From IMG/VR virus record IMGVR_UViG_3300035145_001509, positions 1 through 23,833 of that record: a DNA stretch of 23,833 bases. One strand, written 5' to 3'. The stretch is from a virus. Below are positions 5,632 through 20,727 of the stretch, piece after piece; positions within the stretch are counted from its first letter, which is position 1; the number at the start of each line of letters is the position of its first letter. The translations under genes were made by a program, and so were the position numbers. The notes beneath the pieces were generated by a model, which saw only the letters and a program-made list of their open reading frames with translations, searched no databases and was not told the origin of the DNA.

Positions 5632-5634
5632 GCT

Positions 5635-5669
5635 TGTACTCAGCGTCAACACACAATACTATTATAATA
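5635..5669 (+). promoter_or_regulatory. Candidate promoter of clpP, variant of the repeated element
   Basis: TGTACT (5635-5640), 19 nt, then TATTAT (5660-5665) inside the palindrome TATTATAATA (5660-5669). The spacing and the presence of an inverted repeat at the second box match the five TACATTAC sites, but the box sequences differ. TATAAT (5663-5668) could also serve as a -10 with another upstream contact. The leader to the ATG at 5703 would be about 30 nt. Confidence 0.45.
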
Positions 5670-5702
5670 CAACACTCAATACCACAGATCCAAGGAGATC
5701 AA

Positions 5703-6305
5703 ATGCAATATAATCTAACCAACCACGACAATATCAAAGAAGTCGAATTCAAGTTTCCGCCTGTAGTCATTACAGTTAACGAGTTTAACGAGGATGCAGC
5801 TAAGAAGTTCTGTTCAGAAATCGCTCGAGCTCAAAATACTGGCCAGACTATTATTCCGGTTGTTATCGACTCTTACGGTGGACAAGTATACTCGTTGCTT
5901 CGTATGATCGATGCAATCAATTCCTCGAAAGTTCCCGTAGCAACTATTGTCGAGGGTAAAGCTATGTCTTGTGGCGTGGTTCTCGCTACTTGTGGAGCAG
6001 AAGGCCATCGATATATCGGCCCTAACGCTACTCTCATGGTGCACGATGTTAGTTCAGGTAGCTTTGGTAAGAACTCAGAAATCCAAGCAAGTGCGGAAGA
6101 AACAAATCGATTGAACGACAAAATCTATAAGATCATGTCTGATAACACGGGCAACTCAGTGAAATGGTTCCACAAGAAGATTATGGAACGAGGTCGTGCG
6201 GATTGGTTCTTGGAGCCAGAGGAAGCTATCGAATTGGGCTTCTCAGATCATGTGAAAGTTCCAACCCTCAATATCAACGTGTCTCTCGACTATAACTTCG
6301 GCTAA
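5703..6305 (+). CDS. clpP: ClpP-like serine protease
   Basis: A self-compartmentalising serine peptidase that normally forms a double-heptamer ring and degrades substrates delivered by ClpX or ClpA. The start at 5703 follows AAGGAG with 8-nt spacing; an upstream in-frame ATG lacks this. The 200-residue protein carries a complete catalytic triad: Ser89 (GKAMSCG), His114 (LMVHD), 25 residues later as in E. coli ClpP (97 and 122), and Asp167 (RADWFL). IDSYGGQV matches the oxyanion-loop region. Two cysteines beside Ser89 and in ATCGAE are unusual. No prohead-protease-type context (portal, scaffold) is in the window, so use as a proteolysis subunit is likelier than as maturation protease, although ClpP-fold proteases do mature some capsids. 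No Clp ATPase is present here; ClpS is at 13834. Confidence 0.9.
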   Translation: MQYNLTNHDNIKEVEFKFPPVVITVNEFNEDAAKKFCSEIARAQNTGQTIIPVVIDSYGGQVYSLLRMIDAINSSKVPVATIVEGKAMSCGVVLATCGAEGHRYIGPNATLMVHDVSSGSFGKNSEIQASAEETNRLNDKIYKIMSDNTGNSVKWFHKKIMERGRADWFLEPEEAIELGFSDHVKVPTLNINVSLDYNFG

Positions 6306-6377: not shown

Positions 6378-6836
6378 ATGTTAATCGAAACCTTTCGGGA
6401 TTGGATTGGTTATCACAAGGCCTTGGAGCTTTGGTTCCACAATGCACATCACAGCGTAAGAGGCGGAAGTTTTGCTGGAGATCATGCAATTCTATATGAT
6501 AACTTGTATACCGTTGTCTTTGGTGACTCTTTTGATGGCGTAGTAGAACGTGGCATTGGTTTAACTGATGACCAATCACTGGCAGACGCTGTAGAATACG
6601 CTATCAACGCACATAATAGGCTTAAGGGTTGGCCTACTCCATCTTCGCTCTCCGCAGAACAATTAGCTGCTGAGGGTGTTACTCGTATCACGGAGTACTT
6701 AGATTTCCTACAGTGGATGAGAGAAAGCCTAGAGTTTACCGGAGAGTTGACCCTAGGCCTTGACGATATGATCGCTGGAATGTGTGACGTGCTAGAGACT
6801 GAAACGTACAAATTAAAACAAAGATCGGCCCTATAA
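6378..6836 (+). CDS. Dps/ferritin-like protein
   Basis: Dps proteins form 12-mers that oxidise and store iron and shield DNA from peroxide damage. The family call rests on spaced ferroxidase residues: His24 and His36, 12 apart exactly as in E. coli Dps (His51, His63), within HHSVRGGSFAGDH, and Asp53-Glu57-Arg58 (FDGVVER), 4 apart as in Dps (Asp78, Glu82). The gap between the second His and the Asp is 17 rather than 15, so two residues are inserted. The remaining helices (DAVEYAINAH, ITEYLDFLQWMRE, DMIAGMCDVLETETYKLKQR) fit a ferritin-like bundle, and 152 aa is normal for Dps. It follows clpP with its own promoter-like element and may be co-transcribed with the tagged genes after it. Confidence 0.72.
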   Translation: MLIETFRDWIGYHKALELWFHNAHHSVRGGSFAGDHAILYDNLYTVVFGDSFDGVVERGIGLTDDQSLADAVEYAINAHNRLKGWPTPSSLSAEQLAAEGVTRITEYLDFLQWMRESLEFTGELTLGLDDMIAGMCDVLETETYKLKQRSAL

Positions 6837-6846
6837 GGAGCGAACA

Positions 6847-7140
6847 ATGCGTCTTACCGAATCCCAATTAAAAAGAATAATCAGGCAAACGATACGAGAA
6901 GGCCGTCCATTTTACAGAAACCCATTCGGAAGGTTTCGTTCTTTGGAGAATTTTCTCATGACCGTTATCTATCCTTGCTTTGAAATGGGCTACAATGCTG
7001 ACTATTGTTATTCCCATAGCTTGGGTGCGGAAGAGATGCAGATCATGAGAGCTAATATCAACGAAATCCATGGGCTTTTCGGAGACCCAGAATTTGAAAA
7101 TTATGCAACCGCAATTGCGGAACTTTGCTTAGGAGAATAA
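6847..7140 (+). CDS. Small protein with basic N-terminal tag (possible packaged virion protein), 97 aa
   Basis: AAGGAG precedes the ATG, 10 nt after the Dps-like stop. The first 19 residues (MRLTESQLKRIIRQTIREG) form a basic amphipathic helix ending in IRE-G, and nearly match the N-terminus of the next gene. Such openings are frequent in marine and jumbo phage proteins as I recall. The IRE site fits the (L/I)-x-E rule of T4-type prohead proteases, so it may be a cleaved capsid-targeting sequence; this is a hypothesis. The remainder (residues 20-97) is helical with aromatic and Cys residues (YPCFEMGYNADYCY) and has no family I recognise. Confidence 0.72.
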   Translation: MRLTESQLKRIIRQTIREGRPFYRNPFGRFRSLENFLMTVIYPCFEMGYNADYCYSHSLGAEEMQIMRANINEIHGLFGDPEFENYATAIAELCLGE

Positions 7141-7141
7141 T

Positions 7142-7699
7142 ATGAGAATCAAAACATCAACCCTTCGACGTATCATTCGAGAAGAATATAGTAGGCTAAA
7201 GAGACAAGGACTCATCCGTGAAGAATTCGATATGGAAGCTGCTAGAGCTGATTACACCAGAGCAGGTGACGAAGACAGATCGGAATACACAGATGCGGAG
7301 TTGGACATGATCGCTGATTACGATCTCGAGCCAGGCGATGATCTTACCGATGCTGAATTGAACATGTACGCTGACTATGGAATGAAAGTGCCTGTGAATC
7401 GTATGCAAAAGAAAGGCGGAAAACGCAGAGCTTCTGATTTCGCAACAAATGAATCACGTCTTCGACGTAGACTCAGAAGAGCTATTAACGAAGCGATGAT
7501 GTCTCCTGATGACCCAGATTACAATGCAGTCGGCAACGTGATCATGAATGTAATGAGAGCGGTAATGTTCGGACATATTCAAGGACCAAATGCTATTCAC
7601 GAAATGATCGTAGAAGAAGCTGGATACGAAGGCGTTTCACATCATATCGATTATATCGGTGAAAAGGTATTCGAAAAAATCCAAGCAATGGGCCTATAA
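7142..7699 (+). CDS. Protein with duplicated N-terminal-type tag and internal repeat, 185 aa
   Basis: Starts 1 nt after the previous stop. It opens with MRIKTSTLRRIIREEYSR, matching the preceding protein, and a second, similar basic helix occurs inside (ESRLRRRLRRAINEAM, about residues 102-117). Each ends in an (I)-x-E site (IRE, INE), as does LIREE at about residue 24. Between them lies an acidic tandem repeat: TDAELDMIADY then TDAELNMYADY, 19 residues apart. The C-terminal 65 residues are helical (VIMNVMRAVMFG). Family unknown. The two tags could mark two processing sites, giving separate mature peptides. It probably shares a transcript with the endolysin gene 12 nt downstream. Confidence 0.72.
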   Translation: MRIKTSTLRRIIREEYSRLKRQGLIREEFDMEAARADYTRAGDEDRSEYTDAELDMIADYDLEPGDDLTDAELNMYADYGMKVPVNRMQKKGGKRRASDFATNESRLRRRLRRAINEAMMSPDDPDYNAVGNVIMNVMRAVMFGHIQGPNAIHEMIVEEAGYEGVSHHIDYIGEKVFEKIQAMGL

Positions 7700-7711
7700 G
7701 ATAGGTGAACG

Positions 7712-8605
7712 ATGGCTGTCGATAAGAATTTTTACAACGAAGCTAGCGCAGCGAAACTCGGTTGGAATCCTGATTGGTTCCTTCCGGGGCATCATCTATT
7801 CGATGCAAAATTGGTCAAAGCGATCAAGGAGTTTCAAGTTGAGCATGACCTATTAGCTGACGGAATGTGCGGACCCACAACACACCGCAGATTGGTCGCT
7901 AAGATGGAAGCTGAGTACCCTTTCGTGGGCCCACCTTGGGAACCGACAGAGACGTCACACCTTTGGTATAATGGTGAACCCGTGGATATACACTGGCCTG
8001 CAGACAAAGTGCACACATTCCGTGATGAGGGATTTCCTTTCGATATATCTGAGGGCTTTTCTGGGTACAACAAGCCACGTAAGGTTAAGAGTTTTGTTGC
8101 ACATTGGGACGTTTGCCTTAGTTCACAATCCTGTGCCAAAGTGTTGAAAAAGCGTAATGTTTCGGTACACTTTTGTATTGACAACAACGGGGACATTATT
8201 CAGCTTCACGATATGAACGATGCAACATGGCACGCCGGTGTTAGCAAGGTTAATCATTCATCCGTGGGTGTGGAAATCAGCAATGCCTACTATCCTAAAT
8301 ATCAAGGGTGGTACGAGAACAACGGTTTTGGAACCAGACCCGTAGTCACAGATGCGCGTGTTAATGGAAAACGATTGGGCGAACATTTGGGATTCTATGA
8401 CGTGCAAATGGAAGCATTAAGTGCGCTGATGCAATCCGTTCATGAACGCTTCGATATTCCATATATAGTACCAGACCGTTGGGACTATTATTCGCCAGAA
8501 ACGAGATCGGGTTCGTGGACAGGCTTCATGAATCATTTTAATTGTTCAAAGAAAAAAATCGATTGTGGCGGATATAATTTAGAAGATTATTTTAAGAGAG
8601 AGTAG
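7712..8605 (+). CDS. Endolysin: peptidoglycan-binding domain plus N-acetylmuramoyl-L-alanine amidase
   Basis: Cleaves the amide bond between N-acetylmuramic acid and the stem peptide, freeing progeny phage or aiding entry. Residues 1-65 resemble a PG_binding_1 domain (LVKAIKEFQVEHDL-LADGMCGPTTHRRL). The Amidase_2 domain follows at about 90-295, with zinc ligands His131 (VAHWD), His275 (MNHFN) and probably Cys285 (KIDCGG); T7 lysozyme also uses His, His, Cys. GVEIS (188 is the Glu) and NVSVHFCIDNNG are further family segments. No signal peptide is visible, so release needs a holin or the protein is virion-borne. An N-terminal binding domain is typical of endolysins from phages of Gram-negative hosts with large genomes. 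It overlaps neither neighbour but is spaced 1 nt from the next gene. Confidence 0.9.
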   Translation: MAVDKNFYNEASAAKLGWNPDWFLPGHHLFDAKLVKAIKEFQVEHDLLADGMCGPTTHRRLVAKMEAEYPFVGPPWEPTETSHLWYNGEPVDIHWPADKVHTFRDEGFPFDISEGFSGYNKPRKVKSFVAHWDVCLSSQSCAKVLKKRNVSVHFCIDNNGDIIQLHDMNDATWHAGVSKVNHSSVGVEISNAYYPKYQGWYENNGFGTRPVVTDARVNGKRLGEHLGFYDVQMEALSALMQSVHERFDIPYIVPDRWDYYSPETRSGSWTGFMNHFNCSKKKIDCGGYNLEDYFKRE

Positions 8606-8606
8606 T

Positions 8607-10865
8607 ATGTTAGTTAATCAAAGACCGTTGACACGCAGAGAAGAAATCCAAGCTATCGAATATCTAACGGAAGCAGGATCATGGGACCGACAATTCCTTT
8701 GGGCCACTAGAAACTCGGAAACTACGAAGAAGCAGTTGAACGAAGTGTTCTTTCTTCTCGCTGGCTTGGCTATGTTAGGATCCGTATTTGGTGCGTTATA
8801 TTTGGGTGCTAAATTTCTTGACAAATATGATTTCAGTGGTAAAGGTGTCAAGCCCAAAGACGAAAGCACTCTAAAGAAATCAATCACGGATTTGATGGGA
8901 AAACATAAGGGCTTGAATGACAAAGCTATCAAAGAGCTCCGCAAGAAGATGGAAGATATGGGGCTTGAAAAAGAACAGATTGACGCCATCATCGCAGACT
9001 TGCAAAAAGAAAGCTCAGCCCAACGAGAGAAAAACGGAAAAGAGTTGGGCGCACTTAATGCATGGCTAGCCGAGAACCCACCGGAAGAAAAAGGTTGGAA
9101 AACAAAGTTTACGAAATGGGTCACCAAAAACATGAAATCCGTTGGGCTTCAAGTGGGTATCGGTGAGGAAACTTGGACTATTAGTGGCGAAGAGGACGTC
9201 AGCGAATTAAAAGATCGTATCCCAGATCTGCGGAAAGAGTTTATCAACCAAGGAGTAAAAATCCCAGAAGGCTGGGTCGAAACGTTAGAATCGTTTTATG
9301 AAGAGTTCGAACTTCCAAAATTGGTCACACTCGAAGAATTGGAAGCGGATGCTAATTCCAGTTCTCAAGTTGCAGAAGGTGCAGTTATTTATCGTACAGG
9401 TCGAAGACAATTTGATCTTATCATGGAAAATACAATCAATTTGATCATGGAAGAATCTGACACATCAGAAAAAGTACTAGATGCCGTAAAATACGGTTGG
9501 GATTTTAGTCAAGCAGTTACAACCGGTGGGATGTCTTTATTGCCGACTCTAATAGACAGGGTGGATGCACAGTGGAAATCAATGGACGACGAATCCACAA
9601 ATGCAGAAGAAATAGTGAACGATGTCAATGATCAGTTAGAAGATTTAAAAATTGAAGTGATCATTACGGAACCTCCTACGGATGAAGAAGAACGTAAAGA
9701 AGTTTACGAACGAATCCGTAAAGAATTTCAGACCACTTATCCGGATGACAAAGAAGGCTCTTATTTCATTTATGACACGACAGACTACAATAAGCTGGTC
9801 AATGATATCGAAAGTGACGAAGAATACAAGCCATTTTTGGAATTGCTGAAATTGTACGGGCTACGAAATATCACCCTATCTGATGAGTATAAAGAAAACA
9901 CTAAAGATATTATAAAACATGCTACTGCAGTGACCCTTTGGAACGAAAAAGTTCGTGAAGCTTTTGGTGCTAAGAAAAAAGAACAAGACGATGCGAATGC
10001 TGCCGAAGAGGCAAGTGAAAAAGAGCAAGCGCAAGCTCAAGCAATTGCTGATGCGTTGGACCCCGATAAGGAGGACAACGATGATCTACTGAGCAGTATT
10101 GTAGGTGGTTCCGCAGATATTGGGTCATCTATTTTAGGAGGCGTGAAATCTGCTTTGTCTGGTGGTGGAGCTCTTCTTGAATGGCTATGGAATAAGTTCG
10201 GTAAAGAAAAGGGTGGAAGAGCTTTTTGTTTTTCTATTGTCAAACAATGCATGGCTCTTGCAGGTACCGAAATTGCCTCAGGTGGTTTGTCCACTCCTGT
10301 TGTGCTAGGGTTAGCAACAACGATTATCCCAACAGCGTTAAAGGCTGCAGAAAAAGCAGACTCAGCGTGGACATTAGCCGGAGGTGTTGACGGCTTGGTC
10401 AAAGAGATATTCGATAATTTTGGTGAAAACAAAGAACCTATGGCCGAAGACAAGTTCTTAGAATATATCAAAACTCATGGTGACAACGTTTCACCAGAGA
10501 CCAAAAAATTAATCACTGTCATGACCAAACATTTTAAGGGCAATACAGGTGGTGCATTGAGTGCGTGTCGGAAAATTTTAGACCTATGCAGAAATGATAA
10601 CTTATCAGCTGAGCTTGTCGTGCGAAGTTTCCTCGAACATATCACGCCCGAAAACCTTCCAGACGTAGCCGTCTCAATTTGGGGTACTATGGAAAAAATC
10701 GTAGGTAAAGAGCCTGTACAAACAGCTTTTAAGGAATACATGAAGACACAGAATATCAAGATTGAAAACCCCGATGATAGCTCGCCGGGATCTGAAAATA
10801 GCTCGTACAACAGAGAGGGCAATGTAATCTTTGAACGATGGGGCCGTTTGGCTGGCTTGATATAA
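8607..10865 (+). CDS. Large membrane-associated protein, probably virion or lysis related, 752 aa
   Basis: Family not recognised. Starts 1 nt after the endolysin stop with GAGAG upstream. One clear transmembrane segment lies at about residues 46-70 (FFLLAGLAMLGSVFGALYLG), after a polar N-terminus. Next comes a charged helical stretch (about 85-150), then acidic mixed regions. Residues 498-530 are glycine-rich and amphipathic (SILGGVKSALSGGG), followed by hydrophobic segments to about 580. A 17-residue motif, xEGxVI(Y/F)xxxxRxxxLI, occurs at about 256-272 and again at the very C-terminus. LIMEN and LIMEE at 271-283 fit (I/L)-x-E prohead cleavage. Being next to the endolysin, it may be an ejected internal protein, a tail-lysis component or a holin-like partner. 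Confidence 0.75.
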   Translation: MLVNQRPLTRREEIQAIEYLTEAGSWDRQFLWATRNSETTKKQLNEVFFLLAGLAMLGSVFGALYLGAKFLDKYDFSGKGVKPKDESTLKKSITDLMGKHKGLNDKAIKELRKKMEDMGLEKEQIDAIIADLQKESSAQREKNGKELGALNAWLAENPPEEKGWKTKFTKWVTKNMKSVGLQVGIGEETWTISGEEDVSELKDRIPDLRKEFINQGVKIPEGWVETLESFYEEFELPKLVTLEELEADANSSSQVAEGAVIYRTGRRQFDLIMENTINLIMEESDTSEKVLDAVKYGWDFSQAVTTGGMSLLPTLIDRVDAQWKSMDDESTNAEEIVNDVNDQLEDLKIEVIITEPPTDEEERKEVYERIRKEFQTTYPDDKEGSYFIYDTTDYNKLVNDIESDEEYKPFLELLKLYGLRNITLSDEYKENTKDIIKHATAVTLWNEKVREAFGAKKKEQDDANAAEEASEKEQAQAQAIADALDPDKEDNDDLLSSIVGGSADIGSSILGGVKSALSGGGALLEWLWNKFGKEKGGRAFCFSIVKQCMALAGTEIASGGLSTPVVLGLATTIIPTALKAAEKADSAWTLAGGVDGLVKEIFDNFGENKEPMAEDKFLEYIKTHGDNVSPETKKLITVMTKHFKGNTGGALSACRKILDLCRNDNLSAELVVRSFLEHITPENLPDVAVSIWGTMEKIVGKEPVQTAFKEYMKTQNIKIENPDDSSPGSENSSYNREGNVIFERWGRLAGLI

Positions 10866-10935: not shown

Positions 10936-11919
10936 ATGATCATTAATGACACCGTCGAGAGAGACGACAAGGTACACGGCAAGTTCCAACATCCGGAGAA
11001 GCCACCTATCAGATATGCAGGTGCTAAATCCAGAATGTTTAAGAAGTACGACGTTAACGGCTTTTTTCCACAGAAGGCACCTAGCATCTTCGTAGATATG
11101 TTTGGTGGCAGTGGTTCTATGGCTATGTGGGTCAGGGAACGATATCCCGATGTCCCGATTGTCTTCAATGATAATAATCGGGAGATGATGCAAATGTTCG
11201 GTGTTATAAGGGACTATATCGGCGTCATGGAACCGTTTAACGAATCATTAAGGTTAGCATACGCCCCATTGGATATACCGGATAGAAAGAAACTGTACTA
11301 CGATGTGAGACAAAAGTATTTAGACGGAGAGTTCTCAGGCCCGATAGAAGAAAGTGCGATGCTACTGTTTATGATGCGCACTAATTTCAACGGTTTCTTC
11401 GGAAATGGCTTGAAAAATTATCCGGATAGATATAGTGGTACGGCTGGCACGATGATCTGGAAAGCAGACGGTACTCTTTTCGATCCAAAAAGACTGCGCA
11501 AGTTTTCGGAAGCTCTGAAGACTTTTGTTTTAGCCAATGGTGACTTCGAAGAGATCGCTTCCCTATATGAGCAGGACAACGCTTGGTTCTACGCAGACCC
11601 TCCTTACAGATTAAGTACAACGGAATATCACGAGAAAGGTTGTGCAGATGATGATATTCAGATGCGGTTGATTCGATATATGCAACACTTGGACAGTAAA
11701 GGAATACATGTAGCTATGTCTAATCGAGAACACCATGACATGGGTGATTTGAAATGGAATTTTACTAGTTTGGGTAAAGATCATGTTTCGGGGCTTTGGT
11801 TTGGCGACAAGTTCGACAGTAATTTCAATATTACGCTTTATAAACATAAGTACACGTCTGGACGACACAACAAGGGTGATGGTGTAAAGGCTACGGAAGT
11901 CTTAATCAAAAATTATTGA
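10936..11919 (+). CDS. dam: DNA adenine-N6 methyltransferase, Dam/D12 class
   Basis: Transfers a methyl group from AdoMet to adenine in DNA. The D12-class order is visible: an N-terminal IRYAGAKSRM segment (family PxRYxGgK), AdoMet motif I FVDMFGGSGSM (about residues 52-62), NDNN at 78-81, and catalytic motif IV DPPY at 221-224 (FYADPPYR), followed by HVAMSNRE. The 327 residues are close to family size; E. coli Dam is 278, and extra length is at both ends. The target site cannot be read from the sequence, though GATC is common in this window. It could protect phage DNA from restriction or guide replication. Downstream there is a long gap, so it is probably the last gene of its transcript. Confidence 0.9.
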   Translation: MIINDTVERDDKVHGKFQHPEKPPIRYAGAKSRMFKKYDVNGFFPQKAPSIFVDMFGGSGSMAMWVRERYPDVPIVFNDNNREMMQMFGVIRDYIGVMEPFNESLRLAYAPLDIPDRKKLYYDVRQKYLDGEFSGPIEESAMLLFMMRTNFNGFFGNGLKNYPDRYSGTAGTMIWKADGTLFDPKRLRKFSEALKTFVLANGDFEEIASLYEQDNAWFYADPPYRLSTTEYHEKGCADDDIQMRLIRYMQHLDSKGIHVAMSNREHHDMGDLKWNFTSLGKDHVSGLWFGDKFDSNFNITLYKHKYTSGRHNKGDGVKATEVLIKNY

Positions 11920-13833: not shown

Positions 13834-14172
13834 ATGACACAAAAGAAAAAAGACTATGGCACCGGAGGAGCCGGCACTGACCTTCTCGATAAGAACGAGG
13901 ATAAAGAAAAGATCAAGCCACCTTCGAAATATAAAGTTATTTACTACAATAACGACCACACTCCTATGAATGTAGTTGTGATTTCGCTAATGACGATATA
14001 CAGGCATGATGAGGATACTGCTACAAAAATTATGTTTGCTGTTCACGAAAAGGGTCGAGAAATAGTGAAGTCTGGCCTTAGCAAACAAATAGCGGAAACT
14101 CTCGTTGATAAAACAATTAGATGGTTTCAACAAGTAGGGTATCCGTTAGAATGTACTTTCGAGAAAGAATGA
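13834..14172 (+). CDS. clpS: ClpS-like N-degron adaptor
   Basis: ClpS delivers proteins with N-terminal Leu, Phe, Tyr or Trp to ClpAP. The 112 residues start with a charged, flexible N-terminal part (1-28), then PPSKYKVIYYNNDHTPMNVV, closely matching E. coli ClpS (PPSMYKVILVNDDYTPM). The residues contacting the substrate alpha-amino group are kept: Asn39, Asp41 and His71 (E. coli Asn34, Asp36, His66; the 32-residue Asn-His spacing is identical). The Asp35 position is Asn40. MFAVHEKG and IAETLVDK also match, and the end YPLECTFEKE resembles the E. coli end HPLLCTLEK. Being in one genome with ClpP suggests phage control of N-end-rule proteolysis. It begins directly at the preceding stop. Confidence 0.9.
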   Translation: MTQKKKDYGTGGAGTDLLDKNEDKEKIKPPSKYKVIYYNNDHTPMNVVVISLMTIYRHDEDTATKIMFAVHEKGREIVKSGLSKQIAETLVDKTIRWFQQVGYPLECTFEKE

Positions 14173-19419: not shown

Positions 19420-19463
19420 TTGTGTGATATTCGGGATAGTGTGGTATTATCTGCACTATCCCG
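19420..19463 (+). promoter_or_regulatory. Promoter within a strong hairpin before the cytosine methyltransferase
   Basis: CGGGATAGTG (19432-19441) and CACTATCCCG (19454-19463) form a perfect 10-bp inverted repeat with a 12-nt spacer containing TATTAT (19445-19450). TTGTGT (19420-19425) lies 19 nt upstream. No T-run follows, so it is not a normal terminator. If TATTAT is the -10, the right arm covers the transcription start, as an operator does. Autoregulation by the methyltransferase or binding of a phage repressor is possible. Confidence 0.55.
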
Positions 19464-19500
19464 TTACAATTTATACATAACAATCAATCGGAGGTCACGA

Positions 19501-20727
19501 ATGACTACTAACATTAAATGGGCTAATATTGTCCCACTTATCGGAGGTTCCGCCATTGGGTGTGAACAAGCTACGGGAACAGAACCAGTCTATAACATGA
19601 GTTACGGAGCTTTTGCAAAGAACGAAAGTCACTACCACAGATACCGGCCCAATGTTCCGAATTACGTGCTAGATTCGACTGATGCAAAAGAATCGAATGT
19701 ACCCTCGATCAAGGAAACAGGACGACTTGATTTCGTTAATTCGGTGTGTCCTTGTGCTGGTCTGTCCATGCTTACGACGACAAAGCCTGGAGCTAATAAT
19801 AAACAACGGCAAGCTGCGAATAACTGGATGCGTCTGTCGACAGAATACGTTTTGGAAAACCTAAAGCCTCGAGTGTTCTGGGGTGAAAACGCACCAACAA
19901 TGTTTACGAATAGTGGCAAATACATGCGGGACGAGCTGATCGAATACGCACAGCAACATGGATACTCCATGACATTTTATAAAACGTCTACAGCGTTCCA
20001 TGGTATTCCTCAGCGTAGAGACCGCACTTTTTACTTCTTTTGGGAAACGGAGACAGCTCCAGTCCTGAGTTGGTACAATCGCCCTAAGAAAACTTTCAAA
20101 GAGTATATCACGGAAATGCCGCAGGGCCTACCTAGTTCAGATGAACGTCCAATCTCAAGGACTTTGCAGGATTTTCCAATCTATTCGTTCTTCCGAGAGC
20201 ATTTGGGCTTGGACCATGAATCTATGATTGACAAACTTTCGACTCTTCCGAAGAAAAGACCTAACATGATGCACATCTGTGAAAAAGGCGGCCTATGGGA
20301 TGATTATCAACTTTGGCTTGAAAATAACGATCTTACCGAACATAGAGCTTATAAGGAACTTCTTCGTATCCGTGCAAAGAAAGCAGCGGGCAAGAACTAC
20401 ATGACTATGGCGCCGTATGTGTGGGGATCCGAAACAAATGCTATGGTTGGTCATCAATTGAAAGCTTCGATGCATCCGACAGAACCTAGGTTCTTGAACA
20501 CTCGAGAAGTGATGCACATGATGGGACTTCCACATGACTTCGAATTCACGAAAGCTAATCAGTTTACAGCTCCTAATATGCTAGCTCAAAACGTTCCCAC
20601 CGTAACAGCAAGAGATATGGCTGCTGAAGTAGTTAAGTTTCTTAACGGAGAACTCGAAGACTCAGGGCACACTGTGTCAATGCAGGATAATTGGAAGCAA
20701 AAGTCGTGGGGATATACGAAAGACTAG
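19501..20727 (+). CDS. dcm: DNA cytosine-C5 methyltransferase
   Basis: Methylates C5 of cytosine in DNA, using AdoMet. The start at 19501 follows GGAGG with good spacing; the frame is open upstream, but that part would cross the promoter hairpin. The 408 residues show AdoMet-binding motif I (NIVPLIGGSAIGCEQ, an unusual variant lacking the common Phe), motif IV with catalytic Cys85 (CPCAGLS), motif VI as ENAP (residues 129-132) in place of ENV, motif VIII QRRDR (171-175), and motifs IX-X near the C-terminus (NMLAQNVPTVTARD). The target-recognition region lies at about 210-330. The substitutions are common in phage-encoded enzymes of this type, as I recall. The target sequence is unknown. A strong terminator follows. 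Confidence 0.9.
   Translation: MTTNIKWANIVPLIGGSAIGCEQATGTEPVYNMSYGAFAKNESHYHRYRPNVPNYVLDSTDAKESNVPSIKETGRLDFVNSVCPCAGLSMLTTTKPGANNKQRQAANNWMRLSTEYVLENLKPRVFWGENAPTMFTNSGKYMRDELIEYAQQHGYSMTFYKTSTAFHGIPQRRDRTFYFFWETETAPVLSWYNRPKKTFKEYITEMPQGLPSSDERPISRTLQDFPIYSFFREHLGLDHESMIDKLSTLPKKRPNMMHICEKGGLWDDYQLWLENNDLTEHRAYKELLRIRAKKAAGKNYMTMAPYVWGSETNAMVGHQLKASMHPTEPRFLNTREVMHMMGLPHDFEFTKANQFTAPNMLAQNVPTVTARDMAAEVVKFLNGELEDSGHTVSMQDNWKQKSWGYTKD

Follow-up and report, generated by a model that had tools for sequence, protein, structure and literature searches.

The DNA analysed here (the window) is a 23.8-kb IMG/VR virus record, in which two adjacent open reading frames (ORFs) with basic N-terminal tags sit between a conserved 152-aa gene and the gene of an amidase endolysin. 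The features of this region are the following.

6378..6836, + strand: conserved 152-aa gene that borders the hot spot on the left; PHROG match weak, to a DNA-binding protein; position conserved in 25 distinct loci
6847..7140, + strand: ORF of the 97-aa tagged protein, candidate head cargo; begins MRLTESQLKRIIRQTIREGRPF
6847..6900, + strand: N-terminal tag (residues 1-18) of the 97-aa protein, with TIRE at its end; assigned from the tag family and (L/I)xE enrichment
7142..7699, + strand: ORF of the 185-aa tagged protein; begins MRIKTSTLRRIIREEYSRLKRQGLIREEFD
7142..7222, + strand: N-terminal tag (residues 1-27) of the 185-aa protein, with LIRE at its end; IRE-14 is an alternative site
7451..7492, + strand: internal tag copy ESRLRRRLRRAINE of the 185-aa protein, residues 104-117, ending INE at residue 117
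7712..8605, + strand: amidase endolysin with Amidase_2 and peptidoglycan-binding domains, bordering the hot spot on the right
8607-10865: 752-aa protein; a single hydrophobic segment lies near residues 44-68

Helicase, B12-type ribonucleotide reductase, DNA polymerase III alpha-like, and thymidylate synthase-like genes were recognized by eye among the ORFs, and from this reading the window phage looks like a large tailed phage. Profile searches confirmed its endolysin, ClpP, and ClpS, and no near DNA relative of the window was found in the cultured-phage collection. The fragment encodes both a ClpS adaptor (13834-14172) and a ClpP-like protease (5634-6305), and two further ORFs (10936-11919 and 19420-20727) resemble, by eye, DNA methyltransferases of the adenine and cytosine types.

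The preliminary description of this DNA called the basic starts of the two small proteins near-identical, which is too strong: the tags on the adjacent ORFs are related, but their common part is L(K/R)RIIR plus basic and polar neighbours. The tag of the 185-aa protein is nearer to tags of other phages than to that of the 97-aa protein, its residues 1-27 being 63-78% identical to several tags in loci L103, L122, L221, and L223, with the 78% reached by one L223 tag. The tags had also been described as ending at IRE or INE; this holds for TIRE-18 of the 97-aa protein, where a cut is predicted before GRPFYRN, and for INE-117 of the internal copy, while the end of the 185-aa N-terminal tag is probably LIRE-27, with IRE-14 as a second possible site. 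For the body of the 97-aa protein, Pfam gave no match, PHROG gave only a weak one, and no relative was found; among the fetched loci its tag alone retrieves relatives. The internal copy claimed for the second protein is indeed present (residues 104-119 read ESRLRRRLRRAINEAM), and it is like variant tags found at the same locus in L103 and L118. Because the L103 variant, MNKRQLRKTLRRVINEAM, resembles this internal copy, the 185-aa protein is read as probably a fusion of two tagged units in tandem. Such tandem proteins are not unique to the window, as two or more tags occur in one protein in several relatives (L198:6361-7784, L100:9111-9965).

Both window proteins contain more (L/I)xE sites than their shuffled versions (5 versus 1.8 and 6 versus 2.1), and the window holds two N-terminal tag matches, where the rate inside proteins predicts 0.06. 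In six fetched relatives, the observed and expected numbers were 10/0.4, 19/0.7, 11/0.3, 7/0.2, 6/0.3, and 6/0.6, and in most fetched relatives the N-terminal rate exceeds the within-protein rate about 10- to 40-fold. With the same pattern, no N-terminal match and no tagged cargo was found in the fragment G006, a relative at 84% by its reductase. The tag is basic and predicted to be helical; an AlphaFold model of the 185-aa protein from its single sequence, of low confidence (mean pLDDT 45), places a helix at residues 5-21. The 97-aa tag has a notable hydrophobic moment (reached by 95 of 5000 shuffles), the 185-aa tag and the consensus do not, and the amphipathic-helix argument was dropped for that reason.

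The 752-aa neighbour had been grouped with the two small proteins on account of its LIMEN and LIMEE motifs. Both motifs are present, around residues 271-283, but they carry no weight as evidence, as the protein contains 12 (L/I)xE sites against 13.1 +/- 3.2 in shuffles, and its membership of the packaged set was rejected on this count. The only relatives found (26% over 150 aa) lie in L010 and L011, at the same place after the endolysin, and a separate search of viral contigs gave no confirmed relatives.

The site that holds the tagged genes is itself variable. The 152-aa gene and the endolysin gene are adjacent (12-37 bp apart) in 15 of the 25 distinct loci having both, and a gap of at least 288 bp separates them in the window and eight other loci; eight of these nine hold ORFs with a tag or variant tag, with different bodies. 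The site beside the endolysin is a hot spot of variable cargo, unoccupied in most relatives, and a ClpP-like gene lies just upstream of it in the window and in relatives. At the hot spot of L091 (13764-14532), a 255-aa protein carries a tag-like stretch, SETKLRKLIRESIKRRMKWL, at its C-terminus rather than its N-terminus.

Across viral contigs, the tag was found in 76 stretches with a first, narrow DNA pattern and in at least 120 with a second one, and the fetched contigs, whose gene starts were called by a simple script, have up to 19 tagged genes each. The tags are 18-27 residues long and share a basic core with the consensus M(K/R)ITxxQLRxIIREE. The bodies behind them are mostly unrelated, with nearly no family matches: those of 166 non-redundant tagged ORFs fall into 88 clusters, and those of 212 tagged ORFs in the second set, among the matches listed, into 172 clusters (identical copies were checked inside each set separately). 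A short N-terminal leader is thus common to proteins with unrelated bodies, as expected of a capsid-targeting propeptide of the T4 type. Two tagged bodies, at L065:1801-2358 and L076:8080-8532, carry zeta-toxin/AAA_33 P-loop kinase and NUDIX hydrolase domains (loci assigned by reading the sequences). Within a genome, the tags differ mainly synonymously, with pN/pS values of 0.15-0.29 for tag codons and of about 0.95, like unrelated sequence, for the bodies; judged from these codon comparisons, it is therefore the peptide itself that is under selection at the amino-acid level.

The first pattern gave only seven matches in 257 Gb of bacterial and archaeal genomes, and because only two of them are true tagged ORFs, both in MAG contigs, the tag is essentially a phage feature. 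A tblastn search of cultured phages with three tag queries returned only weak matches (a 484-kb uncultured record and three Streptomyces phages, E about 2). Tag matches are at chance in Flavobacterium phage immuto and Rhodothermus phage RM378 (1/233 and 1/164 genes), and the head regions of Microcystis phage Mel-JY01 and Xanthomonas phage XacN1, the parts of these genomes that were read, contain no clear tag. No cultured carrier was found in these searches, and no description of the tag was found in the literature search.

T4 gp21 cleaves after L/I-X-E (PMC9026906), and a site of this kind is enriched behind the core of the tag. Among the 166 tagged proteins, 72% have (L/I)xE in the 17 residues after the core, compared with 27% in composition-preserving shuffles (z 14). 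As the first pattern was biased towards a hydrophobic residue at position 16, the test was repeated with a pattern specifying nothing there, and in the resulting 212 ORFs, among the matches listed, the proportions were 63% and 21% (z 16). LxD, LxK, and LxQ are at chance in the same stretch in both sets, and [VMFA]xE is at the shuffle level among the matches listed for the 212-ORF set. In that set, again among the matches listed, the Glu falls mostly at residues 21-22 or 27; the residue that follows it is often G, A, S, M, or Q. The leader thus ends in L/I-x-E both in the window (TIRE-18, LIRE-27) and, by enrichment, in the family. About one third of the tagged ORFs have no (L/I)xE in the tested stretch, and these may be miscalled tags or may have other sites or other roles.

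Genes for a head of the T4 type are found in tag-bearing relatives. No prohead protease gene was found in the window fragment, which also has no head genes, but the gp21-type enzyme (Pfam Peptidase_S77) is present in such relatives: 21 of 50 records have it, among them all nine reductase relatives of at least 92 kb. The Gp23 capsid gene was found in 20 of 35 records, all 20 of which also have the protease; the two occur together in every tag-bearing relative with a Gp23 gene, and neither was found in the window fragment. An HK97-type capsid was found in none of 23 tag-selected records. Of the 20 capsid proteins, 19 have an N-terminal region closing with ENQ....L(R/K)E, the Glu lying at residue 59-61, the expected propeptide end; T4 gp23 loses 65 residues (PMC9958956) and has LTE at 65. 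The prohead protease of record G048 is encoded in a frame of 576 aa (L270:3117-4847). Several hundred residues interrupt its Pfam match, and the interruption, at the conserved GEC(D)H motif (GECVDGETECL...), looks like an intein.

The head operon also encodes, directly or one gene after the protease, a protein starting with LKxIVKECLVEILxEG, and after it there is often a small basic protein with the start (L)TPxLLKKIIxEE. A search seeded with the former gave 80 loci, a few of them already known. In all 78 readable loci this tagged head-operon protein has an L-x-E in which the L and the E are invariant and the middle residue is free, a pattern that has the look of a gp21-type site, and in all 76 contigs with a detectable protease it lies at most 1.5 kb from that gene. 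AlphaFold predicts a helix at residues 3-25 of the protein, with block pLDDT values of 73-88 over residues 1-20. Among the first four genes downstream of the protease, tagged genes are about ten times over-represented (24/76 versus 71/1627 genome-wide), the genomes being related, which inflates the significance.

The T4 capsid-targeting sequence provides the model for a scheme of docking, cleavage, and ejection (PMC9026906, PMC9958956). As in T4, a short N-terminal leader ending in I/L-x-E stands on otherwise unrelated small proteins, those tag-bearing relatives in which a Gp23 gene was found also have a gp21-type protease, and cargo genes lie beside the endolysin gene, just as T4 ipII and ipIII adjoin the lysozyme gene e. 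In contrast, the T4 sequence is MKTYQEFIAE, of 10 residues, with no detectable similarity to the present tag beyond M-K, T, and I-x-E, and up to 19 cargo genes occur per genome here as against three IPs plus Alt in T4. As its sequence is not that of T4, the tag would be a functional analogue of the T4 capsid-targeting sequence rather than a member of its family. N-terminal propeptides also target inner head proteins to the prohead in the giant phages SPN3US and phiKZ, where they are removed by a gp21-related protease (PMC5694885), but those are mostly longer than 100 residues and are cut after AxE or SxE, whereas the present tags are short and show enrichment of LxE.

We therefore consider it probable, at about 0.75, that both small proteins are carried inside the head of a T4-like phage as internal cargo and that their tag is a T4-like capsid-targeting propeptide. 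For these two proteins, the capsid-targeting reading of the preliminary description is strongly and independently backed by the reuse of the tag, the LxE enrichment, the link to protease and Gp23, and the tagged head-operon protein; for the 752-aa protein it is not supported. By analogy with T4, the basic N-terminal tag (18 and 27 residues) would dock the cargo onto the scaffolding core during prohead assembly, a gp21-type prohead protease would cut after (L/I)-x-E and free the bodies inside the head, and the freed bodies would stay with the DNA and probably be delivered to the host; docking, cutting, packaging, and ejection are all inferred steps. The 185-aa protein, as two units, may be cut in two.

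The main rival to this scheme is that the tagged proteins are prohead core components like T4 gp67 and gp68, attaching to the scaffold through the tag and then being broken down by the protease instead of being kept and ejected. The head operon has genes for two tagged proteins next to the protease gene, and, like T4 gp67, gp68, and gp22, such proteins are encoded with the portal, protease, and capsid genes and carry L/I-x-E, at which the T4 proteins are cut. T4 core proteins are cut into several pieces, and the excess of (L/I)xE sites along the window proteins would suit such a fate. Unlike gp67, gp68, and gp22, however, the window genes lie outside any head operon, in the variable site by the endolysin, and the bodies are highly diverse and include a few enzymes (the NUDIX hydrolase and the zeta-toxin-like kinase), unlike conserved scaffold parts. 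The enzyme-like bodies and the turnover of the hot spot count against degraded core parts as the general case, and we regard this explanation as unlikely.

Less probable still is a docking helix for another phage process, such as replication, transcription, or DNA/RNA binding, in which (L/I)xE would merely reflect the composition of a charged helix. The basic, predicted helical character of the tag and the mostly unknown function of the bodies would fit this, but the enrichment is specific to LxE and does not extend to LxD, LxK, or LxQ, the head-operon protein keeps L and E invariant while the middle residue varies, and in the genomes it is the head protease to which the tag is linked. The ClpP-like gene just upstream of the hot spot and the ClpS gene in the window suggest a further possibility, a degradation signal that the ClpP and ClpS of the phage itself would read; ClpP is present in 14 of 17 relatives. 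However, ClpS was found in none of those 17 records, ClpP was not detected in the tag-bearing G033, and tags are concentrated beside the gp21-type protease. This signal was rejected as the main reading on the two Clp results, and its probability is very small.

The chances are roughly even that, in a large uncultured branch of T4-like phages, a single portable leader brings many proteins with a rapid exchange of members into the head, to be delivered together with the genome. Should the tag be a head-loading signal, phage heads could be loaded with chosen proteins by a second capsid-targeting sequence, different from the T4 one. To our knowledge, it is usually only virion proteomics of cultured phages that reveals which phage proteins enter the host. 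If the leader is the head-loading signal, it would be readable from the sequence alone, so that the injected-protein repertoire of uncultured phages could be listed, a single motif search yielding the candidates, most of which have no known family. T4 IPI acts against host defences, and some of these candidates may do the same.
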